A stretch of 64,000 nt of DNA. Origin: Brachycybe producta. Its lineage: Eukaryota > Arthropoda > Diplopoda > Playtdesmida > Andrognathidae. Location: positions 124,001 through 188,000 of the forward strand of contig JAUPFP010000067.1 in assembly GCA_036925085.1 (NCBI GenBank). The letters run 5' to 3'. How positions within the stretch are numbered: the first letter of the stretch is position 1; each line of letters starts with the position of its first letter. This document shows positions 11,262-43,683 of this stretch, piece after piece. Under the pieces are notes generated by a model. It searched no databases and was not told the DNA's origin. It saw only the letters and a list, made by a program, of their open reading frames with translations. The position numbers and the translations under genes are program-made.

Positions 11262-12460
11262 TCAAGAAATGGGCATTTCAGAACCAAGGTTCGATATGAT
11301 GGTTTGAACCCGAGCTAATCCACTTCCGACAAAGTTGGACGTTGCGTGGACCAAAGAGTTGGCCGAAGAAGGAGAAGTCGATCTCAAGAATTTATTATTA
11401 CACTTACTACTGTTGTTACTTTCCGAGTAATGGACACACACTATTGCTTTACTATTCCACAGCATCTTGAAATATGAAGAAGAAAAAAAACTTAAATAAT
11501 AAAAGATTTATAATGTTTAGATTCATATTTTTTTTTAAAAAAAATTGTGGAAGAGGATTTCTTTTTAATGTTTTTAAAGACAACTTTCAGAAAAATAAGA
11601 AACAGAGCTTTTGTTAACAATCTAGATGCGTTTAGATTTTTAACATTTGGTTTAAAAAAAACGTTCATTATGAAAGATATCAATGTATTTCCTTAGCCTT
11701 TTTTTTTCTTTACTCACGGAGTAAAGAAAAAAAGGCTAAGGAAATTTTTACGCTGATATCTTTCATAATAAACGATTTTTTTTTACCAAATGTAATCAGA
11801 CAGTTATAACTTATAAAGATATAACTAAAATTTCTAAATGGAAAGTTAATTTTTTACAATTAAAAGTTAAAAAAAATGGTTTAAAATGAATAATAATCTT
11901 CAAAAACAACTTAAAAACATCTTTAAAAAATGGTTTAAAATAAAAATCTTTAAAAAATGGTTTAAAATAAAAATCTTTACAAATAGTTTAAAATGAATTT
12001 CTTCCAAAAAACAAATTAAAAAATGATTTAAAATGAATAATTTAAAAAAATTATTTAAAATAAATAACTTCAAAAACAACTTTTCATTCATTTTAAACCA
12101 TTTTTTAAGATATTTTTCATACCTTAAAAATGGTCTAAAATAAATAATTTTGGAAAAAATATAGCAATATATAGAAAAAATAAATGATTTAAAAAAAAAA
12201 TCAAAAATTAAAAAAGTGTAAAATGAAAAAGATTTAAAAATAAAAACTTGATTCAAAATAAAACGTGGATTAATAATAATATTGAATGAAAAAATGTCAA
12301 ATTGTTTAAAATAGAAAATAGTGTAAACAAATGTTGCAGTTGAAATGCCTAAAATATAAAAAAATGTACCAAAGGAGTGTCGGATTTGTCTGTTGTCCAC
12401 TTCATTATTGATTTGGGTTCGTTGCAGGAGCCGGCGCATGAAACGACCATCGATTCCGAA
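11262..12460 (-). CDS. TBC gene last two exons
   Basis: Exon 12460-12370 (acceptor ATATAG) gives SESMVVSCAGSCNEPKSIMKW and TTDKSDTPL, then a TTG|GTACAT donor. Exon 11465-11262 (acceptor TTTCAAG) resumes in phase with MLWNSKAIVCVHYSES and ends GSEMPIS and TAA. If the GTACAT donor were skipped the protein would end a few codons later (LVHFFIF). The spliced form completes another propeller-like strand, so I prefer it, with moderate confidence for the last exon. Confidence 0.65.
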
Positions 12461-15400
12461 CTATATAACACAAAAAAAACACCAAAATAGAACAAAAAAA
12501 ACATCCTCAAAACCAACTCAACTACAAGAGTTCAAAAACCACACTTACTGTAGTCCGATGAGGCACCGAACCGGTTTATCGGCAACTTTTTGCTTTTCTT
12601 TTAGAGTCAATTCAACACTGTACGGAACATCGCTTTCGGAGAACGATATGAAGCTTCCGGAATCGCTACCTTTCCAGAAACGGCCATCAGACGAATTATT
12701 ACCAATAGTCAAGCGGTCGACATTCCTCTTACTCAAGCCGCCATCCTGAACGGAATCGTATTCGACGTGCGATGCGGAAGACAAATCTTCGAGACTAGTG
12801 GCCACCGAGGTCAACACACCACGACTACAGTCGGCCGCTCCTATAACTAATAATGGAGGAGCTTTCGATTGATGATGAGGTGGCGACTTCTCCTCCGAAA
12901 TCAGCCTCTCTTTTCGTCGACGTTCTAGCGTCCGTCGAGTCGAATTGCGACGCCGGTTCGAACAGTTCGAAGCTCCGAGGTATGCTGCCGGTCCTCCGCT
13001 ACTGCTTCCACCGTCTCCACCGGTTGAACCGTCATCTGTTAACAAAACAAAACGAGGAAGTTCGAGAGGAGGAACAGTAAGCTTATCCTTGAAAGTACAG
13101 CGAAGGCGTTGACCCTCGACCGATCTCGCCCACCGCTCGTCTTCGGTATACGACACAAAAACATCGTCATAGTCAAAACTATCACAAGTCGGTGAGCTAA
13201 AGAGGCTGTCTCCACTGCCACCTAACAGATGCGAAACGTCGTCGTAACTTCGACGGTGGCACTTAGCTCCGACGTTCGATCGATTCGAGAGTTGTGGTGG
13301 CGGTGGAGGCGACGAAGACAACGAAGAAGACGTAGACGGAGTCCAGCGTACTTTGGAAGTCACCCACGTGGAGAGCTCGTACGTGGACATACTGTGATTC
13401 AACCGTCGAAGGTTCGGAGCTCGTTCGACCGACGCTCGTTTCGAAACCTTCGGTGGTCTTTCCGTTCTTCGTCGAACGGGATTTCCGTCCGAATTCGCTC
13501 GAACGGAAACGTGACGACAAGGAGACGATGATAAGATTCGCGGTAAGACTGAAACTCTGAGTTTCTCGTTCGATGAAAGAAGTGGCGATGGTTCGCCGTC
13601 GCTTAACAGTGACTTTGGAGCAGCAGTAAGAGTCGGCGATGTCTCCGTCGACGTTTCGCCCAAAATTGTTGCCGTGTCACAACTACTCGTAGTTTTGTCC
13701 TCTTCTAAATCTCCCAATTCATTCTCGAGCTCGCATTCGTCGCACTGAACGACAGTTGCTTCTTCCGGTTCATGCCGACATGTCGAACTGTCTTTGCTGC
13801 CGTCGCCGACTGTTTGATAACCACTGTCCGAACGACCTCTGATCTGTTTCAGTCGGTCGTCCAAATGATCACCGTCTTCGTAATGTGAAAACGTTTTTTG
13901 ATTCAAGTATAATTCCTGCAAAAAAAATACCAAAAATTCAGAAAAAAAAAATCATAAATATCTTAAAACTAGAATAGTAAATGAATTTAAACGTAAATTA
14001 AAGTTCCTCACCTCAATACGCTTCGTCACCAGATCCATGCTCGTTCTGCGTTCTTCGATTCCACCTCCGCCGCCACCGCCACCGTCGCGAGGTGAATTGA
14101 AAGCACTCGTTCTACGAGACGGCAATTTATGAACTTCGTAAACCAACAAGTGTCCATTTCCAGTTCCGACCCACAACGTTCCCTCAACCGGAAGAACAGA
14201 TGTTATGCGCCATTCAGTGTTGAATCCAGTATCCTTTTTTTTTTTTTTTGAAAACAAAAAGTTTAGTTTTTAAAAAGAAAAACCAGAACTAGGACACCAC
14301 TGAAAAAAATATTGTTGTTGTTGTTGTTTACCGTTACAGCTTTTGGACATTTGTTTTCTTTGACGTCGAAAATAGTACGACAAACGAGATTCTGCGGATC
14401 CCAAAGTTGAAGAGCCGAAGATCCACGCAACAGAATCCACACTCCGTGTTTACTGTCCGTGATGCTCGAAACGATGTCCAGAGAGTTACTGGACACCGTG
14501 AACTGGTCTATTATGTCTAGTGTTCTGTAATTACGAAATAAATAATTAAAATTTTATTATAAGAATATAATTATTACAAAAAAAAATATGCAAATGATGG
14601 AAAACAATAGATTCGAACTCCAGTTATTCTGCATTTTAGAGACTAGAAGAGGAAATCAAACACTTACGGTCGATTATCGTGTTAATATCTTTCAATATAA
14701 ACTTTTTATGTCAATTTTAAGCAATTTGAGAAAATGTCCCTAAATTTGCTTCGTAAGACTAAATGTAAAAATTCAAATTGACATAAAAAGTTTATTTTGA
14801 AAAATATCAACATGAAAACAATTCTTTAATTCTACTAGTTCGACATTAGAACTCTGAATACATCACGTTTTAAAAATATTTTTTTTTTAAAAATTGTTTC
14901 TTTTAGGGACTAGAAGAGTAAATATTTTTAAAAATAAGATGATCACGTTTTAGAAACTTTTAAATTTTTTTTTTTCAGATTATTTTTCTAAATTCCAAGT
15001 GAAAATTGAAATTGGCAAATTTGAAATTACTACAAAAAAATTTATTTTAAAAGATATCAACGTGAAAATCCCTCTCGAACTCTGATTATTCTGTCTTTCA
15101 GGCACAAAATGAAGAGAAACTTCAATGTGTTTTAGAAACTAGAAGGGTAGCTCAGTTAATTAAGAGTATTTTTAATGTTGATATCTTTCAAAATAAGCTT
15201 TTTTATGCGAATTGTGTATAAAAAGCTTATTTTGAAAGATATCAACATTAAAAATACTCTTAATTAACTGAGCTGCCTTTCTAGTTTCTAAAACATTTTC
15301 TAATTTCTCTTCATGTTGTTCTTCTAAAAGACAGAAAATAATTTTTCACCTTTAATTATTTTAACTTTGTGTCAAATATGTTTCTTTCAGCAAAGTACGA

Positions 15401-18003
15401 CATTTTCCAAAAAGCCCTTCATAATTCACCTTGCATGCAAGATTACAATCCTGTTTCCGCAAGCGCACCAAAGCCTCCTTTCGACCAAACTCAAGCACGA
15501 TACCGGCCCCGATCCAACCATAATATAAAACACATCGTAATCGATATCGACGGCATTATGAGAAGGCGATGAAGTGGATAGCCGTGCAATGGGCCTCTGA
15601 ACGACCGCGACCGTTCCGTCAGCCAAAGCAGCATAGATCCGATTCCTCCTCGGATCGTCCTGCCAACACACACTTAGAACGGCATCGTTCAAAGTGGTCC
15701 TCCACAGACATTCTCGTGTCGTAATATCGTACGCGTAAAGACAGTGAGAGAGCGAACCCAATAACATGACGTTCGCTTCGGGCACGTACGACAGACACAT
15801 GATGCGAGAATCAAGCTGAAGAAAGAAAAGAAAAAAACAGCAAAATATTAAAACATATTTTAAAAATTTTAACGTTTTTACGATATTTTAAATAAATATT
15901 TTATGTATTTCAAATTTTTAAATTATTTGAAATATTTAAGGTGGCCGAATAGAGATTTATTTTCATTTTGCCCTCCCAGATGGCTCCACTGTTGTGGCTA
16001 TTATGTTCTATAGGAGGTCTCTACCGCACAACTTGCGGTTTTGAGAAAATTTACATTTTTCAAGCGAACGTTTTTCAGGAGAAACATTACGAACACATTC
16101 TAAGTGTTTTAGAAACTAGAATAGTTGGTGATAATGCTAAAAGTGTTTTCATGCTGATATCTTTCAAATTAAACTTTTTATGACAGTTTTAAAATATAGT
16201 TTTTCGTGAAATGTCAATTTTTTCAAATTTTTCAAACTCAACTTTATATAAAATGTTTATTTTTTAAGATGTTGTTGTCATGAAAAAAACTTTTAGCATA
16301 ATCTTTTACAACTCTAGTTTCGAAAAACATTTTTAATTTTTTCGTAATGTTGTTTCTAAAAACCGTTCACTTGACATTTTTGCGTCCAAATTTTCCAAAT
16401 ATAGCATTAACCACTGTAGTGTGCGCCATCCGGAGGGAGACAAAAGCAAAATAGCTATCTATTCAGCAACCTTAAGATGGCTTTAAAAGCGTTCAAATCA
16501 AATACGAATTTTTAAACTTCTTGCAGATCTATCGAGACATAAATAAAATCATCCCAATTAAGTTATTTTAGGAATTTCTTAGGAATCCCCTCCCCACCCC
16601 TCCAAAATAAAAGGATTATTAAAAAAGGACCTGTATATCGAGCCATTGCATTGTACCGTCGGTAGCCGAAACCTCCATAATGCGGCCATTACTTTGATGA
16701 CCCTCGCAAAGCCACAAAACATCTTTCAAACAAACAAACAAAAAAATTACCAATGAATCTAAAAATTAAAGCTGATTTTAAAGCGTAAACGCATCTCAAA
16801 CCACTGATTATTCCGTTTTTCAGGTAGAAAAATAAAGAGAAACTTGAACGTGTTTTAGAAACTAGAAACGCTCATGAAAATATCCCTTAAGTGATTGAGC
16901 TCTCCTTCTAGTTTCTAAAACACTTTTCTAGTTTCTTTTAATTTCGCACTTGAAGTACTCTCTTGCCTGAGAACAAACACCTTAACGTGATTTTAAAATG
17001 TAAATCGGCCTCTCGAACTCTGATTATTTTGTCTTTCAGGTGCAATATAAGGAGAAATTCGAACGAGCTTTAGAAACTAGAAGGGTAGCTCAATCACTTA
17101 AAGGGTCTTTCGTGTTGATATCTTTCAAAATAAGCTTTTTATGTACATTTTTTTTAAAAAAAATTCAACGTTTAGCAGACATTTTTAAAAGTTTTGTATG
17201 TAAAAAGGTTTATTTTGAAAAATATCAACACGAAAATACTCTTAAGTGATTGGGGCTCCTCTTCCAGTTTCTAAAACCCTTTCTAGTTTCTCGCTGTTTT
17301 GCTTCTGAAAGCCAGAAGAGCAAAACTTATCAGAACATTTGTACCAGAGTGCAAGAGGGAGAGAGATTATTACACAAACCCATAAATCTCACCGTTTCCT
17401 ATGACGGCAGCACACTCGATGATCGTGGCCGTCGTGTCCATCTGAGCCTCCAGTCCATCCAACTGAAACAAAACAAAACAGCAAACGTCATCAACCCTTT
17501 CTCGAAGAAATTTTTCTTAAATTCTCACCAATTTCTCTTTCGTTTCCATCACCTCTTTTTCTAAATTTCTCTTTTTGTGTTTTTCTTTCAGTGTTTTAAG
17601 GTAGCAAGCTTGTTTGGACACAATCTCGGCACGGCGAGGAAACGGTTTCAGATCTTCGAAAGCAGTCTTGAGAAAATGAACAGAAAACGATTTATTTTTA
17701 TAAATAGCAATTTGCAAAAAACAAAAAAAAACAATGCAAATGAAAGCGAACAATCTAATAAAATTCAAATCGTTAATTTTTCCGAGTGCGAATAACTTCT
17801 CGATGCGATCGTAAAATACTGACCCTCATGAGGCCTTCGACGTCGTAACAGAGCCGACTCGAAGCCTTAAGTTGCCGCATAATTGAAATGGTGCTCGTCC
17901 TTTCCAAAAGAGAGACTTCAGTCATTTTAAGAATAGCGACTGAAAATCGGAACAACACTTTGGGTCCCTCGTACAAGAAGCAATCCCAGATTCGCAACAG
18001 AGT
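11262..18003 (-). CDS. TBC (Rab-GAP) protein with C-terminal WD40-like propeller, 3' ten exons
   Basis: Exons on the minus strand: 18003-17824, 17666-17529, 17462-17393, 16722-16631, 15815-15430, 14524-14332, 14233-14012, 13915-12549, 12460-12370, 11465-11262. All nine junctions are in phase with GT-AG borders. About 980 residues are visible. The first two exons encode the end of a TBC domain (TLLRIWDCFLYEGPKVLFRF, then AFEDLKPFPRR), closest in memory to the TBC1D2/TBC1D2B group, which stimulates GTP hydrolysis by Rab7-like GTPases. The next five hold WD40-like blades (RIYAALADGTVAVV, LWVGTGNGHLLVYE), recalling the propellers of JIP3/4, LRRK and ARHGEF10/17. A long Ser-rich exon follows, then a last blade (VVSCAGSCNEPKSIMKW). 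Upstream exons with the catalytic Arg/Gln fingers were not found. I know no common human protein with this exact order. Confidence 0.8.
12549..13915 (-). CDS. TBC gene exon: ~455-residue serine-rich insert
   Basis: A single long exon with acceptor TTTTTTTTGCAG and donor CTACA|GTAAGT. It is rich in Ser, Thr, Asp and Arg, with basic phospho-site-like patches (RRRTERPPKVSKRAS), a PPPPPQ run and an acidic FDYDDVFVSYTEDERWA segment. The end (DKPVRCLIGLQ) looks like the first strand of a blade completed by the next exon. The insert thus sits between blades and is probably disordered. The GC content is clearly higher than in the flanking introns, supporting coding status; the opposite-strand frames here are shadows. 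Confidence 0.8.
14012..17462 (-). CDS. TBC gene exons: WD40-like propeller blades
   Basis: Five exons (17462-17393, 16722-16631, 15815-15430, 14524-14332, 14233-14012) encode repeated four-strand blade signatures. Examples are DVLWLCEG...GTMQWLDIQ, MCLSYVPEANVMLLGS...LYAYD, RRLWCACGNRIVIL, GVWILLRGSSALQLWD and ITSVLPVEGTLWVGTGNG. A Gly run precedes a basic Ser/Thr stretch at the end of the last one. The acceptor of exon 14233-14012 is odd: 16 adenines lie directly before the AG, with the pyrimidine tract further upstream. Confidence 0.8.
15058..15340. repeat. Foldback repeat, family F (TBC gene intron)
   Basis: A near-perfect inverted repeat: GTTTTAGAAACTAGAAGG, TAGCTCAGTTAATTAAGAGT and GATATCTTTCAAAATAAGC on the left; all recur inverted on the right, around a short TTTTTATG loop. 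Confidence 0.75.
15936..16475. mobile_element. TTAA-flanked MITE, family T, copy 2 (TBC gene intron)
   Basis: Begins TTAAGGTGGCCGAATAGAG and ends CTATCTATTCAGCAACCTTAA. Internal segments CCAGATGGCTCCACTG and its counterpart GTGCGCCATCCGGAGG are inverted, as are inner ACTAGAA and GATATCTTTCAAA blocks. It is the same layout as copies at 7200 and 30552. Confidence 0.75.
16996..17330. repeat. Foldback repeat, family F (TBC gene intron)
   Basis: CCTCTCGAACTCTGATTATT, GTCTTTCAGGTGCAA and AAACTAGAAGGGTAGCTCAA at the left; GGCTCCTCTTCCAGTTTC and CTTCTGAAAGCCAGAAG at the right. It fills most of the intron between exons 17462-17393 and 16722-16631. Confidence 0.7.
17529..18003 (-). CDS. TBC gene exons: C-terminal half of TBC domain
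   Basis: The exon 18003-17824 (60 codons, phase 0 at both ends) encodes LLRIWDCFLYEGPKVLFR followed by AILKMTEVSLLERTSTIS and ends ...VEGLMR|GTCAGT. Exon 17666-17529 continues TAFEDLKPFPRRAEIVSKQ and a Lys/Glu-rich helix (LKEKHKKRNLEKEVMETKEKL). The R-I-W-D-x-F-x-x-E-G-x-K-V-x-F-R motif is the conserved late TBC motif, and the charged tail matches the helix after TBC in TBC1D2-like proteins. Confidence 0.85.
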
Positions 18004-18117
18004 CTGGAAATAACATTGAAACAACAACAAAAAATTAAAAATCTTAAATAATGATCGAAACAACCGCTTTTTATTGAGACTCGATTGCGATTTTTAGGTG
18101 GAAACAAATTAATAAGA

Positions 18118-18232
18118 AACTTTTCCTCCACCCTTTTATGACGTCAGACCAAGTAACAAACCCAATTAGAAATTGAGGACGTTCATAAAAGGGCTGAGCA
18201 AAAGAAATTCTAATGCTGGGCACAATTGCCTG
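18118..18232. mobile_element. Truncated family M MITE, short subfamily
   Basis: CCACCCTTTTATGACGTCAG...CAATTAGAAATTGAGGACG...CATAAAAGGGCTGAG...CTGGGCACAATTGCCTGT. This matches the 135-bp element at 55169 but lacks the left terminus. Confidence 0.55.
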
Positions 18233-18239
18233 TGATAAA

Positions 18240-18636
18240 CTGTAGTTTAATTTTGCTACTCTTATCCCCTCCCCTTTTTTATATTTGAAAGAGAAAATGA
18301 GTTTTTCATTTTCTCTGGTATGCGCATGCGCGTCGTTTGTTCCTTTTTTTACTCCTTTCATTTCAATTTCAGTCACCCGCTCCCCCTTTTGTCCCCCTCC
18401 ACGTTTCTCTCTCCTCCCCCTTCTACACTTTCCAACCTTTTCTCCCCTCTCCAATTTAATATCAATGGGGTTCTTGGATGGGGAGTGTGCAACATATAGT
18501 TGACCTTGAGAAAAAAAGCGGTTCATTTATTCATTTAAATTTATATTAAATTCCGACGTGCTTCAAGGTTTTTGTCCTTGTTTGTACAGCATTAATCACA
18601 CATACACAGACCTGGCTTAATATTTATATATAATAA
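18240..18636 (+). mobile_element. SINE-like family S, copy 2 (diverged 5' end)
   Basis: Shares GCGCATGCGCGTCGTT, the polypyrimidine block, AGTTGACCTTGAGAAAAA, TTCCGACGTGCTTCAA, ACACAGACCTGG and the TATATA tail with the copies at 8629 and 41417. The CTAGTGGGGTAACCC start is missing or replaced. Confidence 0.65.
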
Positions 18637-18639
18637 TTT

Positions 18640-18990
18640 AATATTTTATATTTTATTTCAGTTATTTGTATCTTCTTAATGAATAATATAGGATTCTTAT
18701 ATGAAGGATTAGAGAACCTTTTAGGATTCGGATTTGGATTCGAGAAAATTTAGGATTTCGTTCTCGACTCAATACAGCGCAGCTATCACAGTGTTCGAAT
18801 AATGCTGAAATCAATACATTAAAGAAAGGCATTTTCAAATGTAGTCAAGTATTGTCACAGTTTGACACAAAAATATATATTTTTTGCTCATTTTAGACAA
18901 AATGACAGGTGCAAAAAAATGGGAGGATTAGGCGTAAAAAGGAGAAACAATACTTTCTCCAACCTTTTTCTTAAAGATTTTACTAAGAGA

Positions 18991-19049
<59 letters not shown>

Positions 19050-19050
19050 A

Positions 19051-19102
<52 letters not shown>

Positions 19103-19614
19103 AACCTTAACGAGGTTCTTGTCTAATTAGCATACAGGTGATCCTCAGGTTTTTTAAAAAAAAAAAGAATAAACCCGTTTTCGGCACGCGAATGAAACAC
19201 GAAGATGAAGACAATCTTTCTCTCGATTTCCAAGAGTTTCTTTCCTTCTTCTCCTCCTCCTCCTCCCTTCTCAACTTGAAATTTCAACGAAAATATAAAA
19301 AAAAAATGTGAAAAACGATAATAAAAATCTTAAGATAATAAATGTCTTACCTCCTCCTATCTACAAATATAACGGACAAATATTTGTTGAAAACAGGGTC
19401 AAACACTCGGGCTACTGGCAAGGACAATTACTTCAGTTTACATTTTTACAACAACAGAAAAACAAAAAAAATTCAGGATTTATTGTCATGTGTGTCTGTG
19501 TGGAGAGAAAAAACTCAAAAGAGGACTCAGCAGGGAAATTACAAGGGGATCTTCCTTAAGTTGTGGAGATGATAATTTCGGTGGAGTGTTCGTTATCATA
19601 TTGTACTGTAGCAG
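18640..19614. other. No gene; long (TC)n microsatellite inside
   Basis: A TC repeat about 110 bp long (near 18990-19098) interrupted by TATC units, then a mixed stretch with a CTCCTCC run. Upstream exons of the minus-strand TBC gene were looked for here and not recognised. Confidence 0.4.
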
Positions 19615-20135
19615 AATTAGTCCTCAAGTTGTAGAGAAAATCATCAACTTGTGGAACAAGAACTAAAATTGTGGATTAAGTTCAGATTGTGGTGAAGAGT
19701 CCTTCGAATTCTGGAGAGAGACCTCAAGTTGTGGAGAAAGTCCTCAAGTTGTGGAGAAAGTCCGGATTGTGGTGAAGAGAGTCCTCGAATTCTGGAGAAA
19801 GTCCTAAAGTTGTGGAGAAAGTCCTAAAGTTGTGGAGAAAGTCCTAAAGTTGTGGAGAAAGTCCTAAAGTTGTGGAGAAAGTCCTAAAGTTGTGGAGAAA
19901 GTCCTAAAGTTGTGGAGAAAATCCTCAAGTTGTGGAGAAAATCCTCAAGTTGTGGAGAAAATCCTCAAGTTGTGGAGAAAGTCCTCAAGTTGTGGATTGA
20001 GCCCTCAAGTTCGGAAAAAAAAAGTCCTCCAGTTGTGTAAAAAAAAAGTCCTCCAGTTGTGTAAAAAAAAAGTCCTCTAAGTTCTAGAGAAATTCCTGAA
20101 GTTCTGAAGGAATCCTAAAGTTATAAACAAACTCC
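19615..20135. repeat. Minisatellite, 20-bp unit (GTCCTAAAGTTGTGGAGAAA)
   Basis: At least 18 units, most exact between 19800 and 19990, with CAAG/AAAG variants in blocks and degenerate units at both edges. Any open frame here is a by-product of the repeat. Confidence 0.9.
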
Positions 20136-21323
20136 TGAGGTTGTGAGGAATTTTTTTTATGGAATCAGTCCTCATGCTTTTGAGAAAGTTCTTAAGAAAT
20201 TCATTATTTTGTTGCGGGGATCCAAGTTGGGAAGGTATCCTGAATTTACAACATGTATTGAAGTTGTGAGCATAATCCTCAAGTTAGGTGGCTCGCGAGC
20301 CAAAAAAAAAACCACCCTGTTTGAAAAAGAAAGCTGACCACTGTAATGATTCCAATCAAATTCCATTGATCCCAATCTTGTGTCCAGTTTTGTTACAAAT
20401 TCAAGAAGAAAGGGTTGAACAAAAAAAAAAGGGGTTGAAAGTTAAAGGAAAGAAAAACCAAAAATGAAAAGTTGGTGAAAGGATTGAAGAAGAGAGAGAG
20501 AGAGAGAGAGAAAGGTGAAAAAGGGCATGTCCACTAGTGTCCAGCCTCCAAAATAGATGGACTTCATAGCTCATTGAACTATATAGGAAGGGGCCAAACG
20601 TTACTCTTTCCAAGAATGATATTGAGGCCTCAGTAAACCAATTGTGTAAAGGGGCACCACCCCCCCCCCCCCTCCCCCCCGTTTCCCCCTCTCCTCACTT
20701 GAATCCCATGTGGTCAGTTTTTTTGTTCCACAATGGGGCTCCCGTGCTGAGAGCGAAGGGGGTCAAGAAATTAGTATTTCTACTTGACCAACATGACACT
20801 TGGATGCGCCCATACAAACACACACACAGATGATGTCCAATCAAATTCAATGAAAGTCCTTCCATTTTCTACTAAACTTCATCAATACATCAAAGGATAT
20901 ACAATGAAAAGACATGGTCAAACCCATAGAATAAAGAAAAGGTCCTACCCTATGACCTTCATGCCCTTTTATTTCAAAGTTTCACTGGGGCATTTTGACA
21001 ATTGTGAAGAACGTGTCTATAATACACAGGTTTCTAAATTTAGCATTTTTTTTAAAAAAAATGTCTTATTCCGAATTAAATAAGTGTCCAAAATAGATAA
21101 ATTAACCAAATTTAAATTAATTACAGTTAAAATGGGACTGTAAACAAAAGCTAAAACTGATTTTTCATAATTGCTAAGCTGAAAAAGAAAAGCTCACTTG
21201 TACAGAATCTAAAACCAAATTTATAGACTAGAAATAAACTAGGCAAAACTATAAACAGCTAAAATAGTCATGACTTAATTAAAAGGTAATTAACACTGGA
21301 CACGACATAAGAGCTAAACTCGC
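20136..21323. other. No gene recognised
   Basis: Mixed low-complexity DNA: GA run near 20490, C-run near 20660, CA run, then AT-rich DNA with scattered AGCTAAA words that lead into the next array. Short open frames only. Confidence 0.35.
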
Positions 21324-21360
21324 TGAGCAGCACTTTCCAGTTTATGGAAAGTGCTGCTCA
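21324..21360. repeat. Perfect 16-bp-stem hairpin
   Basis: TGAGCAGCACTTTCCA, five-base loop GTTTA, then TGGAAAGTGCTGCTCA. The stem words (CAGTGCTC-like) resemble the adjacent 23-bp array, so it may be an inverted array unit. Confidence 0.8.
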
Positions 21361-21364
21361 ACGG

Positions 21365-21772
21365 GTAAACTGGACAGTACTCACAAGCGAAACTGGACAG
21401 GACTCGCAAGCTAAAAGGCTAAAAGCTCGTCAGGTAAACTGGACAAGACTCAACAGCTAAATTGGACAGTGCTGGTCAGGTGAACTGGACAGTGCTGGTC
21501 AGGTGAACTGGACAGTGCTCGTCAGGTAAACTGGACAGTGCTCACGAGTTAAACTGGACGGTGCTCGTCAGGTGAACTGGACAGTGCTCGTCAGGTAAAC
21601 TGGACAGTGCTCACGAGTTAAACTGGACAGTGCTCGTCAGGTGAACTGGACAGTGCTCGTCAGGTAAACTGGACAGTGCTCACGAGTTAAACTGGACAGT
21701 GCTCGTCAGGTGAACTGGACAGTGCTCGTCAGGTAAACTGGACAGTGCTCACGAGTTAAACTGGATGAGTCC
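21365..21772. repeat. Minisatellite, 23-bp unit with 69-bp higher order
   Basis: Unit CTGGACAGTGCTCGTCAGGT plus RAA. Three variants (CGTCAGGTG, CGTCAGGTA, CACGAGTTA) repeat in fixed order at least three times, making a 69-bp higher-order unit. Confidence 0.9.
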
Positions 21773-22230
21773 CAAGAAAAAAACTGGACAAGACCCAGAA
21801 TTCAAAACGCAGCACGAGCTAAAATGTACAAAAGCTAAACTGAAGCTTACTAAAAAAAATGTTTAGAAACACCCTGTAAATGGTAACATGGGAACATTTT
21901 AAATTTCCTATTACCAATAAATAAATAATTCAAGAGATGTGATCGGGGGAAAAAAAGTGCTTCAATAGCTAAATCTTCCTGAAGTCAAAGTTGAAATCCT
22001 TATTGAAAAGAAACTAGATTTGCAAATTAGATGAAATTTGAAAGCAAAAACCACAATAAAAAGAAAAATGACATTGAATTTCCTTCTGAATAAAACAACA
22101 ATAAAATGAATAAATATTTTCGATCATTTAGAATCTTAAATTCAACAATACATTTTGACTTAATAATAAAATAATAATGTGGGAAACGAAAAACAATTCA
22201 AGGTTTCTACATAACAACAAAATTTATAAC

Positions 22231-22800
22231 AATTCTGTAACAGTGTAGAGCCCCTGTTACAGGACTCAGGTCTAGATTCTCTTAGTTTGGGGCGGGTACC
22301 GCCTTACGCTGAGAGTGTGATTTAGACCTGACTCCATACGGTGCTGGGGTCGTTCTCGTTGGTATTTACTGTTGAACGCAATTGCAAAGCAGAGAAATAA
22401 TAACAGGCGAGACGGATGCATGTTGACGATGTTACTTAATTATTGTATGCAACCATTGACATACAACAAGCAGAGAAGCGTTACAAAGTGTGGCGTGGTT
22501 TAGCCACCGGAACACTGATTGAGTTATTTCATGTTTCGATATGAGAGAATGGACCACGAATCAATTAAAGACATGGACCTTTATACCTAGGGCCTGCAGG
22601 CACCTACACAGGCGCACAAATGCTCAAGGGACCGTGCCTTGATGGGTATCCATCCACCGATATTAGAACCAGGATGTGGCTTACTCTTTGGGATCTTAGA
22701 TGGTCAAGAAAAAGGGCAGAAATGCGACACTTGGGGTACGAGGGAACCCAAGGCTATGACTTTAAAGGGAAGACGAAATACAGGGTGTTACTATCCTACA
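22231..22800. mobile_element. GC-balanced block, possible solo LTR or old element
   Basis: Starts TGTAACAG...CTGTTACA, a 9-bp inverted pair, and has GGGGCGGGTACCGCC and near its end GGTGTTACTATCCTACA. The base composition differs from both flanks. TG...CA ends are possible, but I see no convincing 4-6 bp target duplication and no coding sequence, so the class is unknown. Confidence 0.3.
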
Positions 22801-22819
22801 GTACAAGACTAGAATGACT

Positions 22820-23030
22820 AATGCTTAAGTGGATGAGAGGAGATAGCCCTTTGCTTATAGTGCTGGTGGTCCCAGGTTCGAATCCTGGCCGAGGCATGCT
22901 GGTTTTGTTTGTCATTCAAATTTTCTCCATCAATTGCAGAATAGATGTCAGACAGGGCAGCAGGTTGTAAAACACATTTCGCCAAAACCGATTTATATGT
23001 CGCATTTTTCAACATTATTTGACCGTCACA
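22820..23030 (+). mobile_element. tRNA-derived SINE
   Basis: A perfect T-arm, CCAGG-TTCGAAT-CCTGG at 22872-22888, includes the pol III B box GGTTCGAATCC and is followed by CCGAGGCA. The 5' part (AGTGGATGAGAGGAG) is only loosely like an A box and cannot form the acceptor stem, so this is not a functional tRNA. The 3' body is unrelated to tRNA, and the minus-strand frame reads the typical RIRTWDH shadow. Confidence 0.6.
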
Positions 23031-24481
23031 CCTCGGTGTTGTGGGGACACGTGGTCCAAGTCAATGCATAGTAAGGTCAATTGGGAATTCCAAGGCAGAG
23101 AGAAAATGGGAACCAGTTGTAGACAAAACGGAATACCAAATGATAACAATATTCCACATTTAAATTTTAGAATGCAAACAAAAAAAAAAAAATTAGAATT
23201 TACTTAAAAAAAAGTTAAAACAAAAAGTTACAAGTTGAAGTGTGACACACCTGTAGACAAAAATTACAAGCCATATAGGGCCTACGTCCAAAAAAAAAAA
23301 AATAAAGCAGATGTTTTTTCTGATGCATTCAGAAGACGCAGACAGTACTTTTCAAGCAGATGCTTCTTTAGTTTAACTACAACTTGGAAACAAAGATATT
23401 TTTCCTTTAAATTTCCTAACCTTCTTCCATATGTATCCCACTTATTGACCTTCCCCCTCCCTCCTCCTCCTCCTCCACCACCTCATCATAATCATTTCAC
23501 CCACCACCTATTTACACCTCCAAACCACCACCCTCCCCCCCCCCAAAAAAAAAACATCTCCACCCATTTAAGAAGACTCAACTAGTGTGCCACTCACTCA
23601 CTACAACACATCCCAATGTGGCCACACCAGAATAATGTTGGGCCCATGTTTGGCACCTCTTTTTTTGGGGGGGGGGGCCACTCAGAATTCACATTTACCT
23701 GAACACGTGCCAGAAAGTGGCAATCAAGACTATAACTTAACAATTTAACCAAACTTATACAATAGATTCGTAGAACAACAAATGGACACAAAGTGGTCAA
23801 ATGTTGCAGATGTTTTTTTGGGTTCATTTTACGATGTTGGTTCTTCAAAACCAAAACAAAAGAAAAAACCAAAAAAAAAACCACTTTCAGAAAAAGAAAC
23901 TAATTTATAAAGTAAGAAAAAAAAAGGTGTTTGAAATGAAAATAAAGTCCCTAAATTTCTGCACCATCTGCTACGAAGTTACAAACCAACCCCTCGGCTC
24001 TTGACCACAATATTGACCAGTGGCACTGACCACTAACTAGTTCCATACTTCTCAAGGGAATAATTAATTGCTTCAGTCTTCTTTTGTAAAGTGAAGAGAA
24101 GAATGTGGTCTCAAGAGTCATTTGGACTTTTGTGGCTCAGGAACTATATTATTATTGACATTAGGATTAAAAAAGGCTGGTCATTTTGACATGAAATTAA
24201 ATTTCATATTTCCAAATTCCGAAATATTAATTAAAAAATCATGAATAAGTTGAGCTAACCTAAACTGTGCAGAATTTAATAGAAATAAGAGCTAAATTGA
24301 TCAAAAGCTAAATTCTTTAAAAGCTAAACTGACACGAAAATAAGTTCTTCAAGAGCTAATCTGATCAACAACTAAATTCTTCAAGAGCTAAACTGATCAA
24401 CAACTAAACTAAACTTTTCAAAAATAAAAAAAAAACAAATACAACTCTTAATTTTCTTAACTGCAATATTATTTAAAAAAG
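23031..24481. other. No gene recognised
   Basis: Poly-A and CCT/CCA-rich tracts (23450-23560), a G run, then AT-rich DNA with degenerate AGCTAAACTGATCAA repeats near 24290-24420. Confidence 0.35.
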
Positions 24482-24697
24482 GCTGGTTAGAGGCTAGATG
24501 TTTAGTTTCTTAGTTACTGTCAGTTTTCAACTAGAACATTATAGTCTCTAACCATTGTTTTTCTATATTGAAAAAAAAAATCATAATTGTTGGTTGATCT
24601 CTCTCTAAACGAGATTGTTTGTTAAATTTCACAATTAGGGGCACTCGAGCCATAGATTGAGAAACATTTGCTTTATATTGCATACAAATTCGAGCCG
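24482..24697. mobile_element. Family E element, right part
   Basis: Hairpin core GGTTAGAGGCTAGAT / TAGTCTCTAACC followed by the outer arm GAGCCATAGATTGAGAAACA and TATTGCATACAAATTCGAGC, as in the fuller copies at 44683 and 46031. The left outer arm is absent. Confidence 0.6.
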
Positions 24698-25818
24698 TAA
24701 TTATAAAAATTAACCTCTTGACCAAAACTTTCAACTGACCAAAACCTGTAAATACCCATTGTTGAAAGAAAATTTGCATATTTTTTTTATTTTATCATTT
24801 ATAATTCAAATTAAAATATATTTCAGTAAAACAGTATTGCATTTAATTATATCATTCATTCATTTGTAAAAATAAAAAAAATAGAGAAAGTTGAAAGACA
24901 TTTTACAAGAAAAAAAGACAAAAAGCAATTTCACCCTCCAAAAAAAGAGTATAAGTTATTAAGATAGGAGGCAGATGTTATAGAAATAATTACTATTCAT
25001 TCATTCATTGCCTGAAAAAGAAAAGCAACACAAATTCCTGTTGTTTGTATTGTTTTATATATACATATACTTAAATGGGTGATCAACCTGTGGCCCTTTG
25101 ATTAGTTAGTCAAATATATAATTTTAGAAGCGCAGGTGAAAAACATTTAACACCGGCCTTCTTCAAGCAAACTCTACCCAATCCCCACCCTCCCTTCAAA
25201 TAAATAAACAAAAGAAAACCTCAGTTAAAGTTTATCTAAATTAAAAATGTAAATTACACACATTTCTATTGGAATCCAACCTTCCCCCCAATGTGTTTGA
25301 ACTCATGTTTCAGTACAAATGGGATTCTAGTTTTTAAAAAAAAAAATGTGTGCAAAACAGCATGAAATTGACAGAAAGATAAAAAGAGAAATTCCGCCCC
25401 CCCCCCTTCTTTTGATTGTTTTAATTACATTCACTTTCAAAATAATTGCAAACATTAAAATCTATTTGATGATTTTTAACATCAAGTATTCAAACTTTCT
25501 CTAGTCAACCCCCCCCCCCCCTCCCTCTCATAACTAATTAAATCAATCAACTTAGCGGCTAAAATAGACTTAATTAAAAATAATTTTAAATTCTTTTATT
25601 ATGTTTCATACTTTTGACCCTTATTTTCGATATTAGGCCTGGTTTTTCTCTCCCCCCCCCCCACTCACCTATTTTTTTTTTGATAAATTTAAATAAATTT
25701 TAATTATTTTTTTAACCCTCTTTATTTTTATAAATCAAAAATTAAATTTAAATTAGAAGCAAATTTTTTTATAAAGAAATTTAAAGTGTTTTATTTTTAA
25801 ATGCATTTAAATGCATAT
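24698..25818. other. AT-rich DNA with several C runs, no gene
   Basis: Homopolymer C tracts of about 9-12 bases near 25397, 25508 and 25653. No open frame above background and no recognised repeat family. Confidence 0.35.
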
Positions 25819-26293
25819 TTAAATGTGTTTAGGTTTGAATTATACGGAATCCAGTTAAGGACACATGCACATCAAATAAAAATTGACTTTATTATTAATA
25901 TTTTAAATTGAAATACTAAATCAATATTTTGTCAATAGTTTATATATTATTTTTAAGTTAATTAACTCAATATTTTCAGATTAATTAACTGCATAAATTG
26001 AATTCGACATATTGTTTGTTTGTCCTTCACAGGGCTCTGTAGAACACGTTTATTGTATTTAAATGCATTTAAATTATCAGGTGTGTGTACTAGGTATAAT
26101 TAGTTAAGAACAATTCAATTTATTTAATATCACTTAAATATTGAGTTAATATTTAAAAATATTCAATTTCTATTTGAATATTAATGTATTATAAGAAAAT
26201 ATTGATTTAGTATTTGAATTCGTTCAGATAATTAAGTTAATTTTCATTCATGTCCTTAACTGGACTCTGTATAATTCCACTAAACACATTTAA
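25819..26293. mobile_element. Inverted-repeat element, family P (complete copy)
   Basis: TTAAATGTGTTTAGGTTTGA and ATTATACGGAATCCAGTTAAGG at the left are inverted as CCTTAACTGGACTCTGTATAAT...AAACACATTTAA at the right. Very AT-rich middle with ATTTAAATGCATTT. One-ended copies lie at 34463, 53795 and 63867. Confidence 0.75.
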
Positions 26294-26342
26294 ATGTATT
26301 TAACAATTAAACATAATTAAGTTCCTTTATATATGTGTATGT

Positions 26343-26517
26343 TACTGTCAATCTGCGGAATCAGTCAATATGCAGGTTGCCTAGGCAATCTGCAAAACCA
26401 CCAATCTGCTAGTGAATCTGTAAAATTCAATACACTTTTTAGGTGTTGAATTTAGCAGATTCACTAGCAGGTTTGGTGGTTTTGCAGATTGCCTAGGCAA
26501 TCCGCAGATTGACTGTA
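26343..26517. mobile_element. TA-flanked hairpin MITE
   Basis: TA-CTGTCAATCTGCGG at the left and CCGCAGATTGACTG-TA at the right. The arms continue through TTGCCTAGGCAATCTGCA, AACCACC and CTAGTGAATCTG. The left arm carries about 20 extra bases. TA at both borders fits a Tc1/mariner-type insertion. Confidence 0.8.
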
Positions 26518-27829
26518 CATCAAAATAATATTGAAAGTGTTTTTTAGAAACTAGAAACTAACTTTTGAGATAATTTCAATGTGGATTTAAAATTTAAGTT
26601 TTCTATTAAGAATTGAAAAATAACGAAATTGTCATTTAGCCCTTTTAATCATTTTATAGTCTAGAATGGTTAAAATTAACAATTTCTTCCTTTCAAATCC
26701 ATTCCTTTAAATGAAAACCCTTACAAGACCACCACCTTAACATATGTTAAACATGTGGTAACTTTGACAACTTCCGTTTTTCTTTTTCTCTCTTATTATA
26801 ATAAAGGATGAGAGATTTGAGAATGTTGCAAAAAGGAAAAAAAAAAGATTGGTTTTCAGATGTTATTTTTTGCATTTCCTGCCAATCTTTCAATTTAAAA
26901 CTTTTAAAATAACCTACAAGACACCAGAAGAAAAATATATAAATTCCCAGATGTCTCCATGTGTCTTTCCCTTTTTTTTTACACACATCCAATGTCATTG
27001 CCACAGAAATATTTACAATTGACTCGTGAGCCTCAGTGTGGTGTGCCCCAAATGTGGCCCCAGTTCTAAAGAAAGAAACTCAAAAATGACAAATCAACAC
27101 AAGTGGACAATCTCTCTCCAAATATCCCTACCTGTTCAAAGAAGATTCACTAGCCTCCTCCTCACATTTTATTTGGAAGCAAAAAATATAAACTTTATTA
27201 TAAAAAGAAGTCTTGGAACCACAAGCAAGCAGATGGCAGCCAAGTGTCCCAATCAGTAACATAAGGCTTCATAATGGGGCCATTTTCCCCTGTTCCCTCA
27301 ATAACAACAACCCCCAGAAGTTCCCTTTAAAAACATAACCCCCTCGAGGTTTTTTTTTTGTATATAATTCTGACCCTCAAATCATCCTCTTTCATTCAAT
27401 TCTCTCTCTCTCTCTCTCTTTTTTTTTTGCTAAGAAGTGTGCCAGAAAAATTGTGAAAAATGTATTATTCATATTATAAAAGAAGTGAGCCGAAATTATG
27501 TCATTTGAAACTACGGGTAACAAAAATATAGAACCTTTTTTTTTTTTGGTCAATAGGGCTATAGACCATTTGTTCACATTTCTGAACAAAGTAAAATTTA
27601 CGACAATAAAATTATGTTTTCATCTTGTTATTTCTTCTATCGCCCCCTTAAGTTGCAAGTGCCAACACTTGTTACTTAGCAAGTTGTAAAGTTTACCCGA
27701 GTTTATTTTTTCTCCTAAAGTTTAGTTATTTGTAAAAAATTTAGTTAAAAGTTGAGTTAATTTTTGAAAGTTTAGTTATTGTAGTTTAACTAAGTTATTT
27801 GCAAAGTTCTACCAGTAAAGTTTATCTTA
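26518..27829. other. No gene recognised
   Basis: AT-rich DNA, a TC run near 27403-27420 and degenerate AAGTTTAGTTAT units from about 27690 that grade into the following array. Confidence 0.35.
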
Positions 27830-29695
27830 GTTTTCTTTATCGTAAAGTTGAGCTTAGTTTTCTTTATCGTAAAGTTGAGCTTAGTTTTCTTTACAGTAAA
27901 GTTGAGCTTAGTTTTCTTTACCGTAAAGTTGAGCTTAGTTTTCTTTATCGTAGAGTTTAGCTTAGTTTTCTTTATCGTAGAGTTTAGCTTAGTTTTCTTT
28001 ATCGTAAAGTTTAGCTTAGTTTTCTTTATCGTAAAGTTTAGCTTAGTTTTCTTTATCGTAAAGTTGAGCTTAGTTTTCTTTATCGTAAAGTTGAGCTTAG
28101 TTTTCTTTATCGTAAAGTTGAGCTTAGTTTTCTTTATCGTAAAGTTGAGCTTAGTTTTTTTTCTTTATTGTAAAGTTGAGCTTAGTTTTTTTTATTTATT
28201 GTAAAGTTGAGCTTAGTTTTCTTTATTGTAAAGTTGAGCTTAGTTTTCTTTATTGTAAAGTTGAGCTTAGTTTTCTTTATTGTAAAGTTGAGCTTAGTTT
28301 TCTTTATTGTAAAGTTTAGCTTAGTTTTCTTTATTGTAAAGTTGAGCTTAGTTTTCTTTATTGTAAAGTTGAGCTTAGTTTTCTTTATTGTAAAGTTGAG
28401 CTTAGTTTTCTTTATTGTAAAGTTGAGCTTAGTTTTCTTTATTGTAAAGTTGAGCTTAGTTTTCTTTATTGTAAAGTTTAGCTTAGTTTTCTTTATTGTA
28501 AAGTTGAGCTTAGTTTTCTTTATTGTAAAGTTGAGCTTAGTTTTCTTTATTGTAAAGTTGAGCTTAGTTTTCTTTATTGTAAAGTTGAGCTTAGTTTTCT
28601 TTATTGTAAAGTTGAGCTTAGTTTTCTTTATTGTAAAGTTTAGCTTAGTTTTCTTTATTGTAAAGTTTAGCTTAGTTTTCTTTATTGTAAAGTTGAGCTT
28701 AGTTTTCTTTATTGTAAAGTTGAGCTTAGTTTTCTTTATTGTAAAGTTTAGCTTAGTTTTCTTTATTGTAAAGTTGAGCTTAGTTTTCTTTATTGTAAAG
28801 TTGAGCTTAGTTTTCTTTATTGTAAAGTTGAGCTTAGTTTTCTTTATTGTAAAGTTTAGCTTAGTTTTCTTTATTGTAAAGTTGAGCTTAGTTTTCTTTA
28901 TTGTAAAGTTGAGCTTAGTTTTCTTTATTGTAAAGTTGAGCTTAGTTTTCTTTATTGTAAAGTTGAGCTTAGTTTTCTTTATTGTAAAGTTGAGCTTAGT
29001 TTTCTTTATTGTAAAGTTGAGCTTAGTTTTCTTTATTGTAAAGTTTAGCTTAGTTTTCTTTATTGTAAAGTTGAGCTTAGTTTTCTTTATTGTAAAGTTG
29101 AGCTTAGTTTTCTTTATTGTAAAGTTGAGCTTAGTTTTCTTTATTGTAAAGTTGAGCTTAGTTTTCTTTATTGTAAAGTTGAGCTTAGTTTTCTTTATTG
29201 TAAAGTTTAGCTTAGTTTTCTTTATTGTAAAGTTGAGCTTAGTTTTCTTTATTGTAAAGTTGAGCTTAGTTTTCTTTATTGTAAAGTTGAGCTTAGTTTT
29301 CTTTATTGTAAAGTTGAGCTTAGTTTTCTTTATTGTAAAGTTTAGCTTAGTTTTCTTTATTGTAAAGTTGAGCTTAGTTTTCTTTATTGTAAAGTTGAGC
29401 TTAGTTTTCTTTATTGTAAAGTTGAGCTTAGTTTTCTTTATTGTAAAGTTTAGCTTAGTTTTCTTTATTGTAAAGTTTAGCTTAGTTTTCTTTATTGTAA
29501 AGTTGAGCTTAGTTTTCTTTATTGTAAAGTTGAGCTTAGTTTTCTTTATTGTAAAGTTGAGCTTAAGTTTTCTTTATTGTAAAGTTGAGCTTAGTTTTCT
29601 TTATTGTAAAGTTGAGCTTAGTTTTCTTTATTGTAAAGTTTAGCTTAGTTTTCCTTATTGTAAAGTCTAGCTTAGTTTTCTTTATTGTAAAATGT
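27830..29695. repeat. Large minisatellite, 27-bp unit, about 69 copies
   Basis: Unit GTAAAGTTGAGCTTAGTTTTCTTTATT. Since 27 is divisible by 3 the array leaves a 478-codon frame of (KLSLVFFIV)n, which is an artefact. Two variant positions (GTTGAG versus GTTTAG, and TTATCG versus TTATTG) form blocks: the first ~400 bp has TATCG, the rest TATTG. Small length errors occur near 28158, 28190 and 29565. Confidence 0.95.
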
Positions 29696-30551
29696 AGCAT
29701 TTTTCTGAAGTTCATATAAACCCTTTTAGGTGTTTAAAGTGCAATTCTAGTCAAGTTTAACTTTAGACTAGTTGGTCCCATTTAGCCCTAGTAAAGTAGA
29801 GCTATTTGTCCAGTTTAGCTGCAAGTCTTGATTAGCATTTTAGTTTATCTTTTGTTCTGTTTAGATTTTTTTTTTGGGGGGGGGGGGGGTTCAACTTAGC
29901 CATAACTATACATTTTTTTGTTGTTGCTAACTATCATTTTTTTATTGTTTTAAAATCCCAAACATGTATTTCATATATCAATGGCAGCTGATTTAAAACT
30001 GTAATCTGATACTCTTTTTTCTAGCCTAGACTAGACTAGCCAGGAAAACAAACAAAAAAAAATCAAACAAAAATATATATTCTGATAAAAAATTGATAAA
30101 TGTCTTTCATTAAGAAACCATTAAAAAAGTAGACTAACATAAAAACAAAATGTATTTCAGACTATCTTTAAAGATAGTAATGGATATCCCAACCTACCTA
30201 CTACTATAGGGATACTAAGGTAGGGGATGGGGTGTTGAAGTTTTTAAGGTTTTTTTTTTTAAGGTGACACCTGTCTGCCTTCAGGTGAATTTCACCCGCA
30301 GAGTTTCTGTCTCCCAAATTTTTCTTCTTCTTCTGGTTCCTTTTTTTGTTTCACCTGCCCCCCCCCTTCTTTCCAAATCACCTTAAAACTTCTGCACCTC
30401 TGAGGAACCCACAATCGGAACCCTCACCCCACCCTTCAATCTCACTTTACCCTGCCTTCTGTAAGTTTACTTAAAAAAATAAAATACAAACTTCCTCATA
30501 AATACAAACAACTGAACGTTTAGGCCCAAATTCAAGAAGAAAACTTTGCAC
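29696..30551. other. No gene recognised
   Basis: AGTTTAGCT-type degenerate words at the left, then poly-T/G tracts, a C run and mixed DNA (30180-30480) with only short frames. Confidence 0.35.
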
Positions 30552-31127
30552 TTAAGGTGGCTAAATAGATATTTATTTTGTTTTTTGTCTCACTGGATGG
30601 CGTTACTGAAGTAGCTATTATTGTTCTATAGGAGGTCCACTTCCTTCCAACCGTGGTTTTTTGACAAAATTTCTATTTTTCAAGAAAAATATTGCAAAAA
30701 AATTCAAAGTGTTTTAGAAACTAGAATATTTAGTTATAATGTTTAAAGTATATTCATGAATCATGATGATATCTTTCAAAATAAACTTTTTATGACAAGT
30801 TTGAAAAAAGCGAAAATAGTTTTTTTCATGAAATTTCAATGGAAAAATCCTAAAAAAAATGGGTCATTTTTCAAACTGAACTATAACATTGTTTAATTTT
30901 TAAGATATTGATTGCCATTCAAAAACTTTTAACAATAATCTTTTACCATTCTAGTTTTGAAAACAATTTGAATTTTTTTATAATGTTTTTTTTTAAATGT
31001 TTGCTTGACGTTTTTGAGTCCAAATTTTCCAAAAAAAACGTTTATGGAGCTTAGCATTGGGGGCGCCACTACAATGGCGCCATCCGATTAGACAAAAACC
31101 AAATAAATATCTATACCGCCACCTTAA
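30552..31127. mobile_element. TTAA-flanked MITE, family T, copy 3
   Basis: TTAAGGTGGCTAAATAGATA at the left; ATATCTATACCGCCACCTTAA at the right. Internal GGATGGCGTTACTGAAGTAG pairs loosely with CACTACAATGGCGCCATCC. The inner part repeats the ACTAGAA and GATATCTTTCAAAATAAAC blocks. Confidence 0.8.
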
Positions 31128-31617
31128 ATCTTCAACTTAAAACCCTCTGAGCAGGGTTCCTACATACGAAAAATATGTGCAAGAGTAATCACTAAAACCA
31201 ACTTTTTCTGTGCTCACAGGATTTAAATTCAAGTGTTAAGTTTTTCCATCTTGAATTTGAGCCTTAATTTCCTCTCTCTCCCCTCTTGGCCCTCCCCCCA
31301 CTCCCCCTCTAGTCTTTTAGACAAAAAAAGAAATTAAAAATGTTTCAATAAAAAGTAGATTCTAAATCAAATGTATTTATTCTTCATGGATTTTTTTTTG
31401 TTCTGACTTTGTTATAACAAAAAGATAAGAACAAATAAATGATTGGATTACAGACAAAGCAAATACTTCCTGAAATTCGATCTCTTTTTTTTTCCATTGT
31501 TACAACAACAAAAAAATTGTCATGACTTCTTGTCATGTCAAGAAACCATTGCAAAATATGCAAAACATAATAGAAAAACAATAGAAAAAGAACTCTTTGT
31601 TATTATTCTGCATTTCA

Positions 31618-31969
31618 GAATGCTCCACATTCCGAAGAAATTGTGCTGCCACAAGAGGGCGCTTGCAATAATTTAATTACTAGACGCACGCAACATGACA
31701 TAATTAACAACAGGCAATTAGAAATCGGGACAAACAGAAGTTGGCTCCGCCCTTTTTATGACGACCGGCAACTTCTAATTGGTTGGTTATGTAGTCTGAC
31801 GTCACATGCTCCGCCCTTTTCAACGTCAGACTACATAACCAGCCAATTAGAAGTTGCCGGTCGTCATAAAAAGGGCAGAGCCAACTTGTGTTCGTCCCGA
31901 TTTCTAATTGCCTGTTAATTAACATAACGTTAGGTCTACATGTCCTCGCATGTCCTTTACAGGGCTCCC
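31618..31969. mobile_element. Half copy of inverted-repeat family G, split by a MITE
   Basis: CACAAGAGGGCGCTTGC, AATAATTTAATTA and CATGACATAATTAACA, then after the inserted MITE TAATTAACATAACG and GTCCTTTACAGGGCTCC. The same words form the complete hairpin element at 55454. The inner MITE occupies 31710-31915. Confidence 0.65.
31710..31915. mobile_element. Family M MITE, copy 5, exact 9-bp target duplication
   Basis: ACAGGCAATTAGAAATCGGG...CGATTTCTAATTGCCTGT with TAATTAACA at 31701-31709 repeated exactly at 31916-31924. The long arms and 9-bp duplication suggest a Mutator-like (MULE) origin for the family. Confidence 0.9.
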
Positions 31970-34155: not shown

Positions 34156-34462
34156 ACAACGAGAGTATATTTCAATTGCGAAATTAAGATAAAACTAGAA
34201 AGTGTTTTAGAAACTAGAAGGGTAGCTAAATCACTTCAGGATATTTTCATTGTTGATAATGATAATTTTCAAAATAAGCATATTTATAGACACAAATTGA
34301 AAAAATATCGTCTTTTTTGTATAAAAAAAAAATTGCTTAAAATCTAGAACTGCCTTTAAACTTTATTTAAAAAAAAAACATTCCTCTGACCTGTGGTCAA
34401 GCAGTTACATATTAACTTCAAGACCTTAAAAAACTGACCACTAATACCTTTGTCGACAGTCA

Positions 34463-43656: not shown

Positions 43657-43683
43657 CTGTTCCATGTGTTTTACTTAACAACA

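Follow-up and report, generated by a model that had tools for sequence, protein, structure and literature searches.

Gene Structure at the Locus

The window analyzed here is a stretch of 64,000 nucleotides from contig JAUPFP010000067.1 of the millipede Brachycybe producta (C67:124001-188000), and genome searches covered the 295-Mb assembly of 442 contigs, referred to by similar handles. Positions without a contig prefix are those of the window. Its minus strand carries, from 18003 to 11262, ten exons of a gene here called the TBC-propeller gene, which appears to join a TBC-type Rab GTPase-activating protein (GAP) domain to a C-terminal beta propeller. The joined frame of 980 amino acids has no inner stops, each exon is stop-free apart from the terminal stop codon, and all nine junctions are GT-AG and phase compatible. 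This agrees with an earlier reading of the letters of the window (the sequence-only reading), which had joined a TBC end to a WD40-like part through phase-compatible exons. Together with exons upstream of the window, the gene very probably encodes a protein that consists of a PH domain, a charged or helical region, a TBC domain, and a propeller (probability, about 0.84).

The window holds the end of the TBC domain. The segment RIWDCFLYEGPKVLFR, previously proposed to be this end, matched the TBC profile PF00566 at positions 183-215 of 216 with 23.8 bits, under the cut-off of 25.2. A six-frame scan of the window for catalytic motifs, to which intron-split motifs are invisible, detected no TBC arginine or glutamine finger. 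The whole-genome PF00566 search gave 38 matches, two more of which lie on C67 on the same strand at C67:200949-201451, 13 kb past the window end. Five upstream exons were placed there on the minus strand (C67:202408-202219, 201837-201685, 201616-201527, 201448-201324, and 201225-201015), and the five further junctions, among these exons and into the window exon, are in phase. An intron of 59,011 bases would cut the TBC domain in two between the last upstream exon, which stops at VPLE in phase 0, and the window exon, which opens with TLLRIWDCF.

As the upstream match reached profile position 208, a second TBC gene was considered and rejected: the upstream exon ends with VPLE and a donor and the profile continues in the window exon, so the two sets of exons are complementary. 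The joined protein matched PF00566 over positions 2-215 of 216 (193.2 bits; 6.2e-57), which completes the TBC end seen in the window. TBC domains contain catalytic finger motifs of the forms IxxDxxR and YxQ. Here, the arginine finger reads ISLDLLR (R at C67:~201574) and the glutamine finger reads YCQG (Q at C67:~201385). As profile positions 2-215 are covered and both motifs are present, the TBC domain is whole and looks catalytically competent. A search of the PDB by sequence with the TBC part returned six distinct TBC/RabGAP sequences at ≤1e-21.

On the N-terminal side, a PH domain (PF00169; 33.7 bits, 5.4e-8; cut-off, 25.1) was obtained when exon C67:231561-231378 was manually joined to exon 217405-217333; the former exon alone was subthreshold (0.0029). 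If the PH exons are part of the TBC-propeller gene, as their order and strand suggest, the gene spans ~96 kb of the minus strand from C67:231561 to 135262. Between the PH and TBC domains, where the TBC1D2 subfamily has a coiled coil, charged exons were recognized by eye at C67:207.0-207.4k and 202555-202485. The latter exon ends in SLPSLEG and, likewise by eye, connects to the first TBC exon in phase 2.

Three other stretches of the same strand were observed in this region. Those at C67:215060-214824 and 209985-209767 are Ser/Arg-rich, show coding-like codon use, and end near GT donors; they are probably further exons of the TBC-propeller gene. The third, C67:262158-261548, precedes the PH exon by 30 kb and comprises two exons that together encode a PDZ domain (PF00595; 5.3e-9); it either is a gene of its own or extends the TBC-propeller gene on the N-terminal side.

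The C-Terminal Propeller

Judged by its sequence matches, the C-terminal part is an LRRK2-type propeller interrupted by a long loop ahead of the last blade. The ten-exon window model alone matched PF23748 (LRRK2 beta propeller) at 1.3e-23 and PF19056 (WD40_2) at 2.2e-20, and the WD40-like character ascribed to this part earlier was thus borne out by Pfam profiles. In the joined protein, PF23748 matched residues 376-645 (85.8 bits, 3.8e-24; cut-off, 26.9). Residues 645-1132 form a Gly/Ser/Pro-rich insertion of ~490 residues with no Pfam match. Behind it lie the final blade and a short tail. Of the 1,236 modelled residues, 1,216 were scanned, and no Roc, COR, or kinase domain was detected among them at E (expectation value) ≤ 1, the N-terminal exons being partly modelled.

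An alternative is that the propeller belongs to the WD40_2 scaffold group of PF19056, whose name we take to be ARHGEF10, and not to the LRRK group. Several results weigh against an LRRK2-type assignment. The PF19056 score of the joined protein is high (7.9e-21), sequence identity between the propeller and LRRK2 is low, and WDR5-type chains come next in the PDB list (from 3.1e-4), where they span the last blades with the loop removed. However, PF23748 outscores PF19056 over a longer single stretch, and LRRK2 tops the PDB matches of the propeller. Among the best 60 of 71 distinct sequences (E ≤ 1), the first twelve align over the same stretch; ten of these are named LRRK2 and two are named non-specific serine/threonine protein kinase (best E, 6.8e-6), and LRRK2 propeller structures 6vp8 and 6dlo are among the matches. 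Moreover, the five PF19056 matches of the genome search lie on C92, C3, and C30, with none on C67. We consider membership in the ARHGEF10 group unlikely and retain the LRRK2-type assignment. The sequence-only reading had compared the propeller to scaffold types of the LRRK or JIP3/4 kind; LRRK proved to be the best match, but JIP3/4 was absent among the matches listed.

One propeller exon piece (15815-15432; 128 residues) was folded by itself, with no alignment as input. Of five models, the best contained 11 strands with a mean predicted local distance difference test (pLDDT) score of 76.6, and the other four had scores of <40. A Foldseek search with the folded exon gave 12 matches at E ≤ 0.001, six of which were WD40-titled (two Rsa4, one WDS, and three beta-TrCP, all presumably WD40 propellers) and six of which were unnamed pre-60S particle chains.

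In a genome search with a propeller query of 289 residues, all five matches at E ≤ 0.01 fell on C67 exons of the TBC-propeller gene. Five candidates were scored in this search, and more distant copies of the propeller may therefore exist. The genome search with PF23748 gave a second match on C2 (5e-4, below the cut-off). It was rejected as an LRRK gene, as it has the look of what we take to be DMXL/rabconnectin. In the search for a true LRRK gene, COR-A gave two matches, one of which is above the cut-off but carries two inner stops, and COR-B gave no match in the genome.

Table 1. Features of the TBC-propeller gene within the window
Feature	Position in window	Strand	Remark
Exon: last ~33 TBC positions (RIWDCFLYEGPKVLFR) and following stretch	17824..18003	-	Both exon boundaries in phase 0
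Exon: post-TBC charged segment (TAFEDLKPFPRRAEIVSK...EKL)	17529..17666	-	Counterpart C79 exon terminates with a stop codon
Intron of 66 bases, fusion point	17463..17528	-	Donor GTGAGA, acceptor TTTGTTTCAG
Exon: propeller start	17393..17462	-	Profile match from ~17423
Exon: propeller, DVLWLCEGHQSNGRIMEVSATDG	16631..16722	-	Weak donor behind exon
Exon: propeller	15430..15815	-	Highest-ranking PF23748 hit in the genome (1.6e-8); fold of this exon by itself has 11 beta strands
Exon: propeller blade(s)	14332..14524	-	
Exon: propeller stretch WRITSVLPVEGTLWVGTGNGHLLVYEV, followed by the first part of the Gly/Ser-rich insertion	14012..14233	-	Acceptor behind run of A
Exon: Ser/Pro/Arg-rich insertion, then last-blade start (VRCLIGL, ~12571)	12549..13915	-	No Pfam match in insertion
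Exon: last blade (SESMVVSCAGSCNEPKSIMKW)	12370..12460	-	
Final coding exon: probable closing strand (MLWNSKAIVCVHY), Ser-rich tail, stop codon	11262..11465	-
Part of the 59-kb intron (C67:142004-201014)	18004..64000	-	Splits TBC exons from exon at 18003

Splice Sites and the Probable Fusion Junction

Splice sites were scored with a rough leave-one-out matrix built on the 15-exon model's own sites (14 donors and 15 acceptors), with the GT and AG sites of C67:135000-203000 as background. These scores count against the exon model in several places. Six of the 14 donors and eight of the 15 acceptors fall within the top 10% of the background. The worst score was that of the acceptor before 14233, which lies behind a run of A (99%), and weak scores were also obtained for the donors after C67:202219 (63%), 16631 (42%), and 12370 (31%) and for the acceptor before C67:201448 (34%). 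The model is carried by its domain matches; splice sites alone would not suffice.

The TBC and propeller parts meet at the 66-base intron, which is in phase 0. Two features of this junction speak against a fused protein. If the intron were retained, the protein would stop three codons on (VRI-stop), and an in-frame ATG at ~17441 could begin a propeller-only protein. The locus could accordingly be read as two adjacent genes on the same strand, the first for a TBC1D2-type GAP that runs to the VRI-stop after 17529, the second for a propeller-only protein initiated at the ATG. In line with two genes, this ATG stands ahead of most of the propeller, the stop lies three codons into the intron, and a similar exon on contig C79 also ends in a stop. 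However, just 66 bases would have to accommodate both the terminus of the first gene and the 5' end of the second, and neither AATAAA nor ATTAAA occurs within them. In addition, the phase-0 donor (GTGAGA) and the acceptor (TTTGTTTCAG) each score near the top 11% of the background (10.6% and 11.3%, respectively). We therefore regard two separate genes as improbable.

Alternatively, both a short and a long form could be made. As the in-frame stop lies three codons in, a transcript that keeps the intron would encode a protein with an ordinary TBC1D2-like end, and a short TBC protein and a long fused form could act as a regulated switch. The coexistence of the stop codon with usable splice sites is consistent with such a switch, but retained introns are often degraded, and we view this possibility, which is compatible with fusion, as rather doubtful. 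A TBC domain followed by a C-terminal propeller, the order given by the sequence-only reading, is the most economical reading of the joined frame, and it is very likely that the fused TBC-propeller protein is made.

The 59-kb intron contains simple repeats, (GA)n runs, and interspersed repeats. A long array of short repeats, which reads ...NFTIKKTKL... in two minus-strand frames, occupies positions 27793-29733 within it. By eye, an interspersed repeat centred around ACCCTTCTAGTTTCTAAAACAC and TTTCAAAATAAACTTTTT recurs, partly inverted, at 10300-10560, 15000-15300, 16000-16350, and 17000-17260.

A TBC1D2-Like Paralogue

The TBC1D2 assignment was made by comparison with sequences of the same genome and of the PDB. 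Many of the 38 TBC matches are exons of one gene, and four genes were aligned with the TBC-propeller gene. The closest of the four lies on C79 and is presumably TBC1D2; its TBC domain is identical at 98 of 193 residues (51%) without gaps. A gene on C1, which we take to be SGSM3-like, is identical at 63 of 164 columns, with the middle part missing, and TBC fragments on C25 and C94 are identical at 16 of 48 and 19 of 42 positions, respectively. The C79 gene and the PH domain upstream both favor the TBC1D2-like character assigned in the sequence-only reading. Within the C79 gene, a PH-like stretch was detected at an E of 0.031, which is under the cut-off.

One result argues against C79 as the closest relative. 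In single-exon tblastn searches of the loci covering the 38 matches, L005, L026, and L003 (the latter two being one place) had lower E values than C79. This is probably because C79 is divided into more exons, and its two best-aligned stretches are 50-53% identical, versus 30-38% in L005, L026, and L003.

Approximately 10 kb downstream on C79 lies an exon that resembles the window exon at 17666-17529 (35% identity over 48 residues; E, 0.001) and terminates in GSFKYIPGARD-stop. Judged by place and likeness, this is presumably where the coding part of the C79 gene ends. A propeller in the C79 gene was considered and rejected, as tblastn with the propeller gave no match at E ≤ 10 within C79:318001-345000 (searched as C79:328001-345000 and C79:318001-328000) and the counterpart exon stops. 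The C79 gene thus seems to have an ordinary ending right after the post-TBC segment, and the two genes therefore seem to diverge at the 17529/17462 junction. We infer that the TBC-propeller gene arose by duplication of a TBC1D2 (Armus)-type Rab GAP and gained a propeller at its 3' end, after the post-TBC segment.

Comparison with Known Architectures

The predicted protein has in common with TBC1D2A/Armus, TBC1D2B, and Caenorhabditis elegans TBC-2 a PH domain on the N-terminal side, a TBC domain with both fingers, and a charged post-TBC segment. It looks like a TBC1D2-like Rab GAP that departs from TBC1D2 in its C-terminal end, and it is for this reason filed as a variant of the TBC1D2-like Rab GAPs. 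Armus presumably ends at its post-TBC coiled coil, whereas here a propeller follows the TBC domain; C79 has the ordinary ending. Excerpts of a study of Armus describe a PH domain, R and Q fingers, and a C-terminal coiled coil after the TBC domain (PMC6176412).

A C-terminal LRRK2-type propeller (PF23748) is shared with the Roco kinases LRRK2 and LRRK1. In contrast to these, the present protein has a TBC domain before the propeller and the ~490-residue insertion ahead of the last blade. It is not an LRRK kinase, as the scan of 1,216 residues revealed neither a Roc nor a COR nor a kinase domain. ARHGEF10-type and JIP3/4 scaffolds contain a C-terminal WD40-like propeller. Matches to PF19056 are common to them and to the present protein, but here this profile scores under PF23748 and the regulator is a Rab GAP.

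TBC1D31 (WDR67) likewise combines a Rab-GAP-type domain and a WD40 propeller in a single chain. In the Tetrahymena proteins TBC1D31A/B, the WD40 part is N-terminal to the Rab-GAP domain, according to excerpts of PMC12506977. This is the opposite order to the C-terminal propeller found here and agrees with the contrast drawn in the sequence-only reading. No description of a TBC protein with a C-terminal propeller was found in the portions of the open-licence literature that were searched; its absence from print or databases is not claimed. Predicted proteins of arthropods may already include examples of this architecture that have gone unnoticed.

Other Observations in the Assembly

Contig C442 (15,359 bases) is a mitochondrial genome and reads well with the invertebrate code. 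With names taken from reading frames, its order is cox1-cox2-K-D-atp6-cox3-G-nad3-A-R-N-S-E (atp8 is not in the list), an arrangement typical of arthropods, and nad4L-nad4-nad5 lie on the cox1 strand, with nad1 on the opposite strand. Stretches 4800-5099 and 10943-10761 are much alike and inverted and are perhaps duplicated control regions. Matches to cox1 were also found in the large contigs at C1:12697416-12698753 and C17:3332011-4029047 (four rows) and are likely nuclear copies of mitochondrial DNA.

Possible Function of the TBC-Propeller Protein

Previous work, as far as excerpts of the papers report it, connects TBC1D2 with LRRK1. Armus uses R and Q fingers, and its PH domain binds phosphatidylinositol 3-phosphate [PI(3)P] and phosphatidylinositol 4-phosphate [PI(4)P] (PMC6176412). 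It acts on Rab7, and the C. elegans homologue acts also on Rab5 in vitro (PMC6176412). LRRK1 is listed as an Armus interactor and is spoken of as phosphorylating Armus (PMC6176412). It has been suggested that LRRK1 is recruited to autolysosomes and activates TBC1D2 (PMC7886321), and TBC1D2 GAP activity is said to be lower upon LRRK1 loss (PMC5348726). In these accounts, activation of TBC1D2 by LRRK1 switches off Rab7 (PMC6176412, PMC7886321, PMC5348726).

A fusion of a TBC domain with a propeller is suggestive because mammalian LRRK1 has been reported to activate TBC1D2. In such a protein, the PH and helical parts would bring the molecule to endolysosomal membranes, and the TBC domain would speed the hydrolysis of guanosine triphosphate on a Rab, for which Rab7 or a relative would be the first guess from TBC1D2. 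The propeller would serve as a recruiting or regulating surface and substitute for a separate LRRK-type partner. Its docking site would be either LRRK or one of the targets of LRRK propellers, namely the same membranes, microtubules, or phospho-Rab assemblies, and the long loop could be a phosphorylation-controlled tether.

We tentatively raise the possibility, which we hold to be well below even, that an arthropod lineage fused two halves of a regulatory pair, namely TBC1D2 as the Rab7-type GAP and the propeller of the LRRK kinases by which it is controlled in mammals. The result would be a self-recruiting GAP that acts against LRRK, or in its place, on the same membranes. The two partners apparently joined here are separate proteins in mammals. 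In our judgement, Parkinson's research has yet to explain how the LRRK WD40 propeller finds its membranes and partners, and a self-recruiting Rab GAP, if this proposal is true, would show which LRRK surface reads those membranes. An LRRK2-type propeller on a Rab GAP, and not on a Rab kinase, would mark the propeller as a portable targeting part common to Rab-inactivating and Rab-phosphorylating enzymes.

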